The position numbers and the translations under genes were made by a program. Shown here piece by piece: positions 31,721-54,039 of a stretch of DNA of 64,000 bases (position 1 is the stretch's first letter; every line of letters begins with the position of its first letter). The notes beneath the pieces were generated by a model, which did not search any database, was not told where the DNA came from, and was given only the letters and a program-made list of their open reading frames with translations. The DNA is from an uncultured Lachnospiraceae bacterium (lineage in GTDB: Bacteria; Bacillota; Clostridia; Eubacteriales; Anaerofustaceae): assembly GCA_944381375.1 (NCBI GenBank), contig CALWKX010000014.1, positions 124,001 to 188,000 of the forward strand, given 5' to 3'.

Positions 31721-31752
31721 TACTGACTTATGCCAAGTGAGAGGGAAATAAG

Positions 31753-31798
31753 AAAACTCTATGTGAATGGATAAACCATTTGCGTAGAGTTTTTCTTT
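31753..31798 (+). terminator. Strong terminator of the glycolysis-cysK operon
   Basis: An 18-base arm (31753-31770) pairs along its whole length, allowing G-U, with 31776-31793 around a 5-nt loop, followed by TCTTTTG. It marks the end of native sequence before the accessory region. Confidence 0.8.
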
Positions 31799-31816
31799 TG
31801 CTTATTTCAAATTTCA

Positions 31817-32077: not shown

Positions 32078-34063
32078 ATGAAAATTTTAAAGCGCGTTTT
32101 ACCTATGGCGCTTGCGAGCTTGCTGGTCTTGAGTTCAGCAATTCCGGCTTTTGCCGCCGAAACATCAGGCACAGCCCCCTCAAAAAAAGAAGAGGTTATT
32201 TATATCACACTGGACGCAGGCGGAACGCTGAAAAGCAGTTATGTGGTCAATAGCTTTTCCGGTGGGAACATTACCGACTACGGCGATTATGCTTCTGTGA
32301 AAATGCTGAATACCAGCGATCTCATTGAACAGAATGGAGATACCATTACCTTTTCTACATCTGCCCCTAAAGCCTATTATCAGGGGGAATTGACGGATAC
32401 AGAAATACCCTGGAACATCTCTCTGCGTTACTACCTGGACGGGTAAGAATACTCTGCGGATGAGATCGCGGGGAAAAGTGGAAAACTGGAAATACGTTTC
32501 CAGATCACAGAGAACACAGCCTGCTCCGGTACATTTTTTGATAATTACGCCCTGCAGGCCTCCTTTACTTTGGATACAGAACAGTGCAGCAATATTTCCT
32601 CCCCGGACGCGACTATCGCCAATGTAGGAAGTAATAAGCAGCTTACCTACACGGTTTTGCCTGGAGAAGGAATTGATACCACCATTACTGCAGACGTGAC
32701 CGATTTTGAGATGAGCGCCGTTTCCATCAATGGCATCCATCTCAATCTGAATGTGGAAATCGACGATACAGAACTGAAAGATAAGGTAAATGAGCTGATT
32801 GATGCGCTGGAGCAGCTGGACGATGGTGCGGTAGAACTTTCCGACGGTTCTGCAGAGCTATTGGATGGCAGTTCTGAATTGAAGGACGGAGCATCTTCTC
32901 TGCAAAGCGGAGTCGCCTCTTTAGATGAGGGCGTGGTCACGCTACAAAATGGGCTTACCACAGTACAGAGCGGGCTGGATGCCTTGAATTCACAATCAGA
33001 AACTCTGACTGCCGGTTCTTCGGAATTTAAGGCGGCGCTGATTACAATCCAAACAGCTGTCAATTCTATCTCTGTGAACAACGAAGATCTGATCGTGCTT
33101 ACAGAGGCTTCCGGCCAGATCAGACAGGCTATCAGCGACCTTTACGATGGCGCAGTCACTTTGCAGGCTAACCTTGGGTACGCTCAATATAAGGCGCTGA
33201 TGTCTCAAAATGGATTGGATATTGATGCTTTGAAAGCTGGAAACTCACAGGCGATCTCAGATTTGCAAGCGCAGATTTCAACGCTCCAAAATGAATTGGA
33301 TCAAATCACAGGCGTCTCTGGAATGGAAGAACAGGCTGCACAGCTTCAGGCGCAGATCGGCCAGCTCTCTCAGATTATCACTTTGCTGCAAGGCAATAAC
33401 GCCGCAATCGGCGGGATGGAAACCTATCTGAATGAGATCTCTGCGCAGCTTCCTGCACTTACCCAAGGTCTGGCAGAATTGAAGGCTCAGTATGAGACCT
33501 TCGATGTTACAATCAGCCAGCTTGTAAATACCCTCGTTAATATGAGCAGAGATCTTTCTGCTTTGGCAGAGGGAATCAATCAGCTTGTGGCAAGCTATGA
33601 AGAACTGGATTCCGGGATCAATGACTACACTGGCGGTGTGGCTCAGATTGTGGCGGGATACAGCCAGGTAATGGACGGAATATCTTTTTTGGCGGAAGGA
33701 AGCAAGGAACTGGTGTCCGGTTCCGAAGAGTTGTATAACGGAACCGTGGAATTGTACGATGGCGTTGTATCCCTTTGCGATGGCGCTCAGAAGATGGCTG
33801 ACGGAACCGGCGAGTTCCGTACCGAAACAGCAGATATGAACGACCAAATTGATGAAGAGATCGACAGGCTTTTGGAGTCCATCAGCGGCAGCATGGATGA
33901 TCCTGTTTCCTTTGTTTCTGAAAAGAATACCAATGTAGAGTCGGTACAGTTTGCCATTCAGACAGAGGCCATTGAAGTGGAAGAAACGGATGAAGTAGAA
34001 GTCGCCAAAGAGGAGAAACTTTCCTTCTGGCAAAAATTACTGCAATTGTTTGGCCTGTATTAA
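32078..34063 (+). pseudogene. Secreted heptad-repeat (LxxG) protein interrupted by one in-frame TAA
   Basis: A single open frame of 662 codons broken only at 32444-32446 (TAA). Part 1 (122 residues) has a signal peptide (KILKRVLPMALASLLVLSSAIPAFA-AE) and ends ISLRYYLDG; after the stop the same frame goes on with EYSADEIAGKSGKLEIRF, the expected continuation in this family, where a Lys codon (AAA or AAG) would be one substitution away. The centre holds repeats such as LSDGSAELLDGSSELKDGAS, then a long coiled coil, more LxxG repeats, and a C-terminal FWQKLLQLFGLY. Such proteins are secreted or wall-associated, often next to MMPL exporters. AAAGGAGGGA precedes ATG 32078. Base composition is more GC-rich than neighbours, suggesting transfer. 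Recent inactivation or stop read-through are both possible. Confidence 0.8.
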
Positions 34064-51626: not shown

Positions 51627-52412
51627 ATGGTAAAAAAGACTGTGAAAAAAAACAGCAGAAAAACACTTTATAATATTTTGATTTTATTATTTGCAGTAAT
51701 ATTTGTAGTTTCAGCGGTATTTATTCTCAAAGATATAATTCCGAGAATACGCAATATGAGACAAATTGACGAAATACGCAACGTCAGCCCTTTCGGTGAT
51801 TTGAATAATGAAGGAAGCGGCGATATATTTGATATTGAAAATATCTCTTTTGATGAGTTAAAACAAATCAATTCTGATATAAAGGCGTGGATATACATAG
51901 AAGGTACAAATGTCAATCATCCCGTATTGCAGGGCCCTGATAACGAATATTATTTGTACGTATCATATCTTAATGAGTATAGCGGTGCAGGAAGCATTTA
52001 TCTTGATGCGGGCAACAGCGATGATTTTACAGACCAAAATACTGTTGTGTACGGACATGCAATGATTGACAAAACAATGTTCGGGACTTTATCCCGCTAT
52101 AGAGATCAATCTTTTTATGACAGTTATCCTTATATACATATTGTAACTGACGAAGGAATCATCTACTGCTATAAAATATTTGCCGTAAATATCATTGGTG
52201 CTTCATATGATTACCGCAGTCCCGAGTATGGCAGCGATTTTGATAGTTTTATATCTTATTTGCGAGCTAATTCGATTATTACTTCCGATACATCCGTTAC
52301 TGATGAAGATAAAATAATTACACTTTCGACTTGTACTGATGTAAGTGATGAAGCAAGACTTGCTGTATTCGGAGTTCTTATCAATCCAAACGGTGAACGC
52401 GTTGATTTATAA
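51627..52412 (+). CDS. srtB: Class B sortase
   Basis: 261 residues. N-terminal membrane anchor (about 15-35), then the sortase B domain: ELKQINSDIKAWIYIEGTNVNHPVLQGPDNEYYLY, VYGHAM with His144, TLSTCTD with catalytic Cys236 and DEARLAVFG with Arg244. It should link surface proteins to peptidoglycan or assemble a pilus or haem-binding system. No substrate with a sorting signal is encoded nearby, so its target is unknown. Alone between sigE and a small coiled-coil gene. Confidence 0.92.
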   Translation: MVKKTVKKNSRKTLYNILILLFAVIFVVSAVFILKDIIPRIRNMRQIDEIRNVSPFGDLNNEGSGDIFDIENISFDELKQINSDIKAWIYIEGTNVNHPVLQGPDNEYYLYVSYLNEYSGAGSIYLDAGNSDDFTDQNTVVYGHAMIDKTMFGTLSRYRDQSFYDSYPYIHIVTDEGIIYCYKIFAVNIIGASYDYRSPEYGSDFDSFISYLRANSIITSDTSVTDEDKIITLSTCTDVSDEARLAVFGVLINPNGERVDL

Positions 52413-52482
52413 ATTTTAAAAAAATAACTTGCGAAAAAATGAAAAAATGGTACAATAAAATGAATGAAGGGAGATTAATAAA

Positions 52483-52674
52483 ATGAGTGCTGAAAGTTTA
52501 ATAGCGGCTAAAAAAGAGCTCAGAAAGCTTCAAAATACTCTTGGCAAAGAAATGTCCATGGGAAAATATAAAGATACTGAAAAAATAAAAGGTTTAAAAC
52601 GCGAAATCAAGGAAAAAAAGCTGAACATAGGAGACATTACAAAACAGATGATCTCACAGCTTTCAGCAGATTGA
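52483..52674 (+). CDS. Small coiled-coil protein of unknown function
   Basis: 63 residues, about one third Lys and Glu, predicted entirely helical (LIAAKKELRKLQNTLGKEMSMGKYKDTEKIKGLKREIKEKKLNIGDI). Start supported by GGGAGA 9-10 nt upstream. No cysteine, no membrane segment. The family is not recognised. It lies 70 nt after the sortase gene and before the structured serA leader. Confidence 0.65.
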   Translation: MSAESLIAAKKELRKLQNTLGKEMSMGKYKDTEKIKGLKREIKEKKLNIGDITKQMISQLSAD

Positions 52675-52727
52675 CTGCCGAAAGCTTGATATATATCCTT
52701 ATATACATAAACGGGATTTCATTCTTC

Positions 52728-52819
52728 AAGTCCGGCAGCTATTGATATTATAAGAACCGACAGAAAATATGTTTTATAATCCGTCAGTTCTGTTTTTAGT
52801 GATATCATAGCCCGGACTT
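52728..52819 (+). promoter_or_regulatory. Nested hairpins in the leader of the 3-phosphoglycerate dehydrogenase gene
   Basis: Outer arms AAGTCCGG (52728-52735) and CCGGACTT (52812-52819) extend inward through CTATTGATATTA against TGATATCATAG with small bulges. The inner hairpin AGAACCGAC (52753-52761) with GTCAGTTCT (52783-52791) is followed by TTTTT, like a terminator. Together a roughly 92-nt structure 60 nt before serA. It matches no riboswitch or T-box I know. Confidence 0.5.
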
Positions 52820-52878
52820 AATCATTATTAAATTGTTTTTATAAAAGCTAAAAATATACGAATACGAAGGGAGAAAAC

Positions 52879-54039
52879 ATGTATAAGGTAAAAACGTTTA
52901 ATAAAATAGCAAAAGAAGGCCTTGACAGATTGCCTGATAATTTTGCGATAACAGAGGATATGGATTACGACGCCATAATTTTAAGAAGTTACAAAATGAG
53001 CGAAGCGGAGCTTACGGATAAGCTGTGCGCTGTAGGACGTGCAGGCGCCGGTGTGAATAATATCCCTGTCGATATGTATGCTGAAAAAGGTGTGGTCGTT
53101 TTTAACGCTCCCGGAGCTAATGCTAATGCTGTAAAAGAGCTTGTAATCCTTGGTATGCTTTTGACGACAAGAAAAGTTGTAGCAGGCATAGAATGGCTTC
53201 AAAGCCAAAAAGATTCTGATATTGATATAGAAAAAGAAGTCGAATCTCACAAGTCCGCATATGCCGGACCGGAGATTTTAAATAAAAGTGTAGGCGTTAT
53301 AGGTCTTGGTGCAATCGGCGCAAAAGTTGCCAATGCGCTTAATGCTTTGGGAATGAATGTTTACGGTTATGATCCATTTATTTCTGTAGATGCTGCATGG
53401 TATATTGACAAGGATGTAAAAAGAGTTAATAATATTGATTGGATATTGCAAAATTGCGATTTTGTAACAATCCATGTGCCTTTGAATGACAAAACCAGAG
53501 ATACGATTAATAAAGAGAATCTTAAAAAAGCAAAAGACGGAATACGCATAATCAATCTTGCTCGCGGCGGTCTTTGCAATGATGAAGCTATACTCGAAGG
53601 TATTCAAAGCGGGAAGGTAGGTTGCTATGTTACTGACTTCCCGAATGAAAAACTTTTGGGCAACGATAAAATTATTGCTATACCTCATCTTGGCGCGTCC
53701 ACACCAGAATCCGAAACGAATTGCGCTATAATGGTTGCGGATCAGGTAACAGATTATATGGTAAATGGGAATATAAAAAATTCCGTAAATTATCCTGCTT
53801 GCAATATGGGCGCTCGTTCTGCAAAGACGCGTATAACTCTTTGCCATAAAAATGTACCCAATATGGTTGGTCAGATAACAGGAACGCTTGCAAATGATCA
53901 AATAAATATATCTGACATGATAAACAAAAGCAAGGGCAATTATGCATATACCATGATTGATGTTGACGAAGACGTAAATGAAAAGGTTATAAATGATTTA
54001 AGCGCTATCGACGGCGTACTTAAAGTTAGAAAACTTTAA
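52879..54039 (+). CDS. serA: D-3-phosphoglycerate dehydrogenase with ACT domain
   Basis: 386 residues. Substrate domain LRSYKMSEAELTDKLCAVGRAGAGVNNIPVDMYAEKGVVVFNAPGANANAVKELVI, NAD domain GVIGLGAIGAKVANAL, catalytic Arg in LARGGLCNDEAI and His in PHLGASTPESE, and a C-terminal ACT domain (NVPNMVGQITGTLANDQINISDMINKSKGNYAYTMIDVDE) that senses serine in the family. First step of serine synthesis from 3-phosphoglycerate. The partner aminotransferase gene is at 4601, 47 kb away. GGGAGA precedes the ATG. It may be controlled by the hairpin leader. Confidence 0.93.
   Translation: MYKVKTFNKIAKEGLDRLPDNFAITEDMDYDAIILRSYKMSEAELTDKLCAVGRAGAGVNNIPVDMYAEKGVVVFNAPGANANAVKELVILGMLLTTRKVVAGIEWLQSQKDSDIDIEKEVESHKSAYAGPEILNKSVGVIGLGAIGAKVANALNALGMNVYGYDPFISVDAAWYIDKDVKRVNNIDWILQNCDFVTIHVPLNDKTRDTINKENLKKAKDGIRIINLARGGLCNDEAILEGIQSGKVGCYVTDFPNEKLLGNDKIIAIPHLGASTPESETNCAIMVADQVTDYMVNGNIKNSVNYPACNMGARSAKTRITLCHKNVPNMVGQITGTLANDQINISDMINKSKGNYAYTMIDVDEDVNEKVINDLSAIDGVLKVRKL

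Follow-up and report, generated by a model that had tools for sequence, protein, structure and literature searches.

A stable palindrome enclosing a terminator-like hairpin ahead of serA in an uncultured Lachnospiraceae bacterium

Architecture and stability of the palindrome

Is a striking fold directly ahead of a biosynthetic gene a metabolite sensor? The question is raised by the window analysed here (the whole stretch of 64,000 nucleotides, 64 kb, from the genome of an uncultured Lachnospiraceae bacterium), in which an imperfect palindrome of 92 nt lies at 52728-52819, inside a gap of 204 nt that separates an ORF of 63 amino acids from serA. A preliminary description had taken it for an unrecognised structured leader of serA that could sense serine, glycine or another metabolite, or for a small mobile hairpin element. 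The features of the region are:

52483-52674, plus strand: 63-aa ORF, function unassigned, directly upstream (ORF list, homology search)
52728-52751, plus strand: left arm of the outer stem (folding, inverted-repeat search)
52753-52791, plus strand: inner imperfect hairpin, terminator-like, -8.2 kcal/mol (folding)
52793-52797, plus strand: T tract (TTTTT) 3' of the inner hairpin (sequence)
52799-52819, plus strand: right arm of the outer stem (folding, inverted-repeat search)
52879-54039, plus strand: serA-like gene of the phosphoglycerate dehydrogenase family with a C-terminal ACT-like stretch (TIGR01327 and ACT hits, below curated cut-offs)

The structure is closed by exact 8-bp inverted repeats, AAGTCCGG (52728-52735) and CCGGACTT (52812-52819), and inner pairing lengthens the arms to 52751 on the left and from 52799 on the right. 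A single G stands between the inner hairpin and the T tract. When 52727-52820 was folded, the plus strand reached -31.9 kcal/mol (z -6.52) and the minus strand -36.9 kcal/mol (z -8.07), and on either strand none of 200 dinucleotide shuffles was as good. This confirms the proposed architecture, an outer stem with extended inner pairing around a terminator-like hairpin and TTTTT, together 92 nt: the stable palindrome before serA is real and better than chance. In a GC-corrected scan of the 64 kb with segments of 94 nt the element ranks 10th among the non-overlapping peaks on the plus strand and second on the minus strand; eight other scan peaks were folded too, and according to the ORF list six of these lie at or just past gene ends and two within ORFs.

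Wobble pairs, taken from the union of both folds, are possible at two positions on the plus strand only (52749/52801 and 52751/52799) and at three on the minus strand only (52727/52820 at the edge, 52758/52786 and 52762/52782). As they fall on both strands, they do not clearly point to selection for an RNA on either strand, though the minus-strand fold is the stabler one.

The start of the small ORF (52483-52503) resembles, by eye, the bases over its stop (52671-52691) at 16 of 21 positions, which may be chance.

Searches for relatives of the element

At gathering score, Rfam recognises only two tRNAs in the whole 64-kb window; at E-values up to 10, two models match near the element in the region 52400-53000, His_leader (on the minus strand) and MIR8008, both far below the gathering score. 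A T-box (RF00230) was found neither in the window at gathering score nor in 52400-53000 at E-values up to 10; this model detects T-boxes in all 13 family genomes. Neither the glycine nor any other riboswitch of Rfam 15 matches at the element. The preliminary description, which had seen no T-box or known riboswitch signature, was right in this respect.

Known leaders of serA resemble the element in part. In Paenibacillus polymyxa, according to the accessible part of PMC8002221, serA is preceded by a serine T-box; like the element, that leader holds an intrinsic terminator before serA, but it measures 280 nt as opposed to 92 nt, and the window has neither a T-box match nor any sign of tRNA sensing. 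A glycine riboswitch before serC/serA is reported for a single Clostridium species (PMC3766115, as far as its accessible text goes): the likeness lies in a cis-regulatory RNA placed before serA or serC, the difference in the lack of any Rfam match for the element of the window. The literature that our search reached held no description of this leader or of a serA leader peptide, which does not imply their absence from print.

When the whole gap served as a DNA query, 8 of 60 other related genomes showed short and weak matches (E <= 0.01); with the element alone, such matches came from 2 of the 66 other genomes searched in the order. These matches span 22-43 bases and were taken as chance. Two covariance models, R1 for the structure on the plus strand and R2 for that on the minus strand, were each built from one sequence, as two identical rows. 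R1, run with strict filters, matched 4 of 41 genomes at E <= 1, with the own copy at 8.3e-32 and the next at 0.046, and none of the matches in the 40 others was convincing; R2 matched 7 of 40 genomes at E <= 0.5, with the own copy at 2.6e-34 and the next genome at 0.0215, and again none was convincing in the 39 others. Three of the other covariance matches were inspected: one lies within a long open frame and two lie between convergent genes.

All genomes compared are from outside the source genus, and among them we found no conserved sequence and structure before related genes of the kind expected of a new riboswitch class. The idea that the element senses serine or glycine is thus unsupported, given that no conservation before other serA genes was found. 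Of the leader interpretation, the stable fold, the terminator-like hairpin and the missing Rfam match stand, and serine or glycine sensing does not; the placement in the serA 5' UTR holds if transcription starts upstream of the element.

The terminator-like hairpin behind the small ORF

As this case shows, a conspicuous fold upstream of a biosynthetic gene is not necessarily a sensor. A better guide than the fold is what occupies the same place in relatives in which the next gene is an unrelated one. The 63-aa ORF has no Pfam or NCBIfam family above cut-off; its homologues (50-67% identity) are present in five other genomes, so that 6 of the 13 family genomes, including the own genome (G000), possess it. 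In G001 and G005 the small ORF is followed by serA and then by a gene for a HI0933-type flavoprotein, in G003, G006 and G009 it is followed directly by the flavoprotein gene, and in G000 the flavoprotein gene is elsewhere (G000:C2). A T-tailed hairpin (a tail counted as T-rich with at least 5 T in 7 bases) follows the small ORF in all six genomes, and this position after the gene is kept even though the hairpin sequences differ and the next gene is serA in three and the flavoprotein gene in three. The hairpins have energies of -8.2 (G000), -15.0 (G005), -10.5 and -9.0 (G001), -19.9 (G009), -23.2 (G003) and -11.2 (G006); of the two in G001, the stronger one (-10.5) is further downstream than the one near the small ORF (-9.0). 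Since the hairpin is also found where the flavoprotein gene comes next, a terminator at this place is not tied to serA. In G000, the inner hairpin of the palindrome occupies the position of the relatives' T-tailed hairpins. In three of the five relatives, by eye, the small ORF is preceded by a gene with an end resembling that of the sortase-like gene of the window.

We put at roughly one half the probability that the element is a weak intrinsic terminator, or a fixed and unregulated attenuator, within a lineage-specific palindrome ahead of serA. We infer that the inner hairpin with its five T would end most of the transcription arriving from the 63-aa ORF, and that this terminator would sit inside a 92-nt imperfect palindrome peculiar to the lineage. 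Transcription of serA would depend on read-through or on a promoter situated shortly before the element. Once a message extends past the T tract, the outer stem would form, so that the serA 5' UTR would retain a stable hairpin with a possible role in protecting or processing the serA message. As the outer stem can form only once the polymerase has cleared the T tract, it would presumably be unable to block the terminator in that round.

With typical intrinsic terminators the element shares a hairpin followed by a T tract between co-directional genes, and a counterpart 3' of the same small ORF in five other family genomes. It differs from them in its weak and imperfect stem, with one base before the T tract, and in a long outer stem that is exceptional among the terminator-like sites of the contig. 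The T tract itself is as expected of an intrinsic terminator (G, then TTTTT at 52793-52797). The inner hairpin has only -8.2 kcal/mol alone and -9.3 when the flanks are included (z -2.09; 7 of 200 shuffles equal it), it carries two A-C mismatches, and a strict terminator scan listed no plus-strand terminator at the element. Also counting against a terminator is the distance to the small ORF: the inner hairpin starts 78 nt past the stop codon, compared to 11-12 nt in G009, G003 and G006.

Furthermore, the terminator reading leaves the outer stem unexplained. In G005 the gap contains a terminator whose outer pairing, at -16.9 kcal/mol, is weaker than that of the window; there is no significant sequence similarity between the two, and this pairing before serA may hint at a serA-linked feature. 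Folding of this gap as a whole gives z -1.77, with 12 of 200 shuffles doing as well, and z -3.03 over 300 nt including coding sequence; the gap of G001 (z -0.45) folds no better than shuffles. The similarity of the window's gap to those of G005 and G001 is no better than that of shuffles either (25 and 26 of 200); its similarity to the gap of G010 is reached by 2 of 200 shuffles and is confined to the 29 nt that directly precede the start codon, which the element does not reach. The outer pairing of the window's terminator was equalled by none of 500 shuffles and that of G005 by 5 and 7 of 500, while the other terminators, behind the small ORF or in G010, had 27, 369, 157, 69, 459, 189 and 39 of 500 shuffles as good; by these counts, only the window and G005 stand out.

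We also considered nested terminators as a general class of this genome and rejected the idea. Over 224 kb, the contig has 404 terminator-like sites, many of them probably within coding sequence, and around these there is no overall excess of outer pairing: the mean is -9.37 compared to -9.02 in permuted data, with 89 sites at or below -12 (81 permuted) and 33 at or below -15 (27 permuted). The site in the serA leader, with -26.3, is the second strongest of the 404.

The main rival reading is a regulated attenuator of serA, which we regard as possible with the odds against it. The positions 52734-52738 would be the switch: left free, they would allow an antiterminator and serA would be read; bound by 52675-52680, they would give way to the terminator. 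The decision would be taken by ribosomes ending on the 63-aa ORF (stop codon at 52672-52674), by a protein or by a metabolite. The relevant features, all on the plus strand, are:

52671-52699, plus strand: promoter-like site TTGACT-17-TATCCT (9/12), the nearest listed upstream of the element (promoter scan)
52675-52738, plus strand: alternative upstream stem (CTGCCG/CGGCAG and inner pairs), in competition with the left arm (predicted)
52735-52793, plus strand: antiterminator-like hairpin, predicted to preclude the inner hairpin as long as 52735-52737 are free (folding)

The predicted flip is sharp: in folded transcripts ending at 52798, the inner hairpin has a probability of 0.01-0.12 if the RNA is free from 52722-52734, of 0.97-0.99 if it is free from 52738-52752, and of 0.01 from 52756 on. 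A nested terminator also precedes serA in G005, and in relatives other modes of regulation seem to act on the serA leader (a serine-rich leader peptide with terminator in G010 and a T-box match in G011, see below). However, neither sequence nor structure of the element is conserved, and terminators 3' of the small ORF are also present in relatives that have no serA next. Fold flips of such kind are frequent in random sequence, and the competing folds here hinge on the start site: in run-up transcripts the terminator probability is 0.98 for an RNA that starts at 52675, 0.06 for 52706, 0.03 for 52640 and 0.48 for 52463. This dependence also counts against the plain-terminator reading. Promoter-like sites are at chance level in the region, with 15 found and 12.3 expected. 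We think it unlikely that the window holds a newly arisen attenuator, with translation of the small ORF or a ligand selecting between the stem 52675-52738, which would allow the terminator, and the antiterminator from 52735. In this scenario the order would keep re-inventing the control of serA, with a T-box in G011, a serine leader peptide in G010 and a conserved serC-serA hairpin in family f3.

It is improbable that a small mobile or repeat-derived palindrome, similar to a MITE, landed in the gap and that the terminator is incidental. Such an origin would be consistent with the near symmetry and the exact 8-bp ends, with wobble pairs on both strands (two on plus and three on minus, one of them at the edge) as in a decaying DNA palindrome, and with the fact that the palindrome is not recognised at the same place in relatives. 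Mobile elements of this type are expected in several copies, but this one has a single full copy in the genome (the other matches are 14-22 nt, at E 0.49 or worse), the 66 other genomes of the order yielded nothing beyond the two short weak matches, no target-site duplication is clear by eye, and there was no match to the element in plasmids and phages and none to an exact 22-mer of it in viral contigs. The repeat or mobile-hairpin option of the preliminary description is therefore disfavoured.

Attenuation by a serine leader peptide in the window itself is highly improbable. The frame in question runs from TTG at 52671 or 52686 to TGA at 52745, ends with ISFFKSGSY and, counted from TTG 52671 where it overlaps the stop of the small ORF, has four Ser in 24 codons, the last two of them in the left arm. 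As in ribosome-mediated attenuators with a leader peptide (general mechanism in the accessible part of PMC1183508; serA of G010 below), a terminator before serA competes with a predicted antiterminator, but the window has no leader peptide with a clear ribosome-binding site (none by eye) or serine run, and the predicted ribosome positions give the wrong on/off pattern. Stalling on serine codons should favour the antiterminator: in the folding this fits one of the three late Ser codons, at 52719, where the ribosome frees the RNA from 52734 and the terminator falls to 0.02, but not the other two, 52731 and 52737, which at equal spacing favour the terminator (0.99 and 0.99), and a ribosome at the stop codon removes the terminator (0.01), the reverse of what is required.

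A small RNA on the minus strand, opposite the serA leader, is very unlikely: the better fold on that strand (-36.9, z -8.07), with an inner stem of 12 unbroken pairs that include two wobble pairs, speaks for it, but a palindrome will fold on either strand, the minus strand lacks a T run after the structure, and model R2 has no convincing relatives. Of minus-strand promoter-like matches, the 1 kb on that side holds just one, at 52831-52804, and this one overlaps the element.

serA control elsewhere in the order

serA was found (E <= 1e-60) in 51 of 61 genomes and in 10 of the 13 family genomes, the own genome counted. A search of contigs for relatives of this serA gave 26 loci (three of them distant), none close, with 53% identity at best. 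At 26 of 30 oriented serA loci, judged by eye, a serC-like gene ends 4-186 nt upstream; the four without it are those of the window, G005, G001 and G010. No serC is recognisable (TIGR01364, E <= 1e-20) in the serA-containing genomes of these four loci, the own genome among them, and as these genomes are 92-95% complete, the second step may use another aminotransferase. Rfam recognised only one tRNA at gathering score in 20 serA loci of relatives. In G011, serC-serA is directly preceded by a T-box match that, with 83.7 bits, misses the cut-off of 93.

The closest SerA, with 64% identity, is that of G010, where 560 nt lie between serA and the next upstream ORF of at least 60 aa. The leader there, quite unlike that of the window, has a promoter-like TTGAAA-16-TATAAT, then AAAGGAGG and a frame of 31 codons, MRHLTLTSVSSSSSSSCSCMACLSLKLRTVR, in which seven serines follow one another. 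Downstream of the frame stands a hairpin (-14.8 kcal/mol) that has the tail TATTTTTA and lies 243 nt ahead of serA. The promoter-like site, the good ribosome-binding site and the strong terminator fall within 1028-1264 of the locus L009, in which serA starts at 1501. When the leader was folded codon by codon, the predicted terminator was off (0.05-0.32) with a ribosome on codons 7-11 and 15-19, intermediate to on (0.54-0.94) on codons 12-14, and on (0.96-1.0) on codons 4-6 and from codon 20 onwards; save for the three serine codons in the middle, the modelled pattern would be that of classical attenuation. Short serine-rich frames are common: across 783 kb of DNA (overlapping loci counted repeatedly), 851 have four or more Ser among 8 residues; runs with 7 of 8 Ser are listed at no fewer than four places, two of which are the G010 frame itself. 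These features, together with an antiterminator that is predicted while ribosomes occupy most of the Ser codons, make a serine leader-peptide attenuator of serA likely in G010. The apparent presence of a regulated attenuator ahead of the gene for the closest SerA counts against a plain terminator in the window. An interpretation of this gap in G010 as coding DNA, which would have placed serA 75 nt behind a gene, proved wrong.

In the family f3, a conserved hairpin of 53 nt is found just before serA in the gap between serC and serA, at 7 of the 30 oriented serA loci (L023, L024, L025, L027, L031, L033 and L036, in the last at 1421-1473) and weakly at an eighth (L028). Its loop is conserved, and three of its 13 pairs are changed on both sides, each in one sequence, a result that 4 of 500 shuffles reach; the serC-serA gaps of f3 fold at z -0.31 to -3.09. 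The hairpin has no match in Rfam, and a model of it (R3) does not match the window at E-values of 1 or below; R3 also had 0 matches in 398 genomes of the phylum, a search that shows little, given strict filters and a set without a known positive. The f3 hairpin is a candidate cis-regulatory RNA. The notion of unlisted serA leaders in the order is borne out elsewhere, in G010 and in f3, and both are more interesting than the window element itself. The likely attenuator of G010 and the conserved f3 hairpin suggest that one bacterial order may use several RNA devices for serA.

Two further observations concern a distant part of the window. At 31745-31808, downstream of a gene of the PALP family (cysteine-synthase-like), a terminator-like hairpin with a T tract is nested in an 8-bp outer stem, GAAATAAG/CTTATTTC. 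Beyond it, at 32078-32640, a frame resembling that of a secreted protein stops at 32444-32446 and seems, by eye, to resume in frame after the stop codon.
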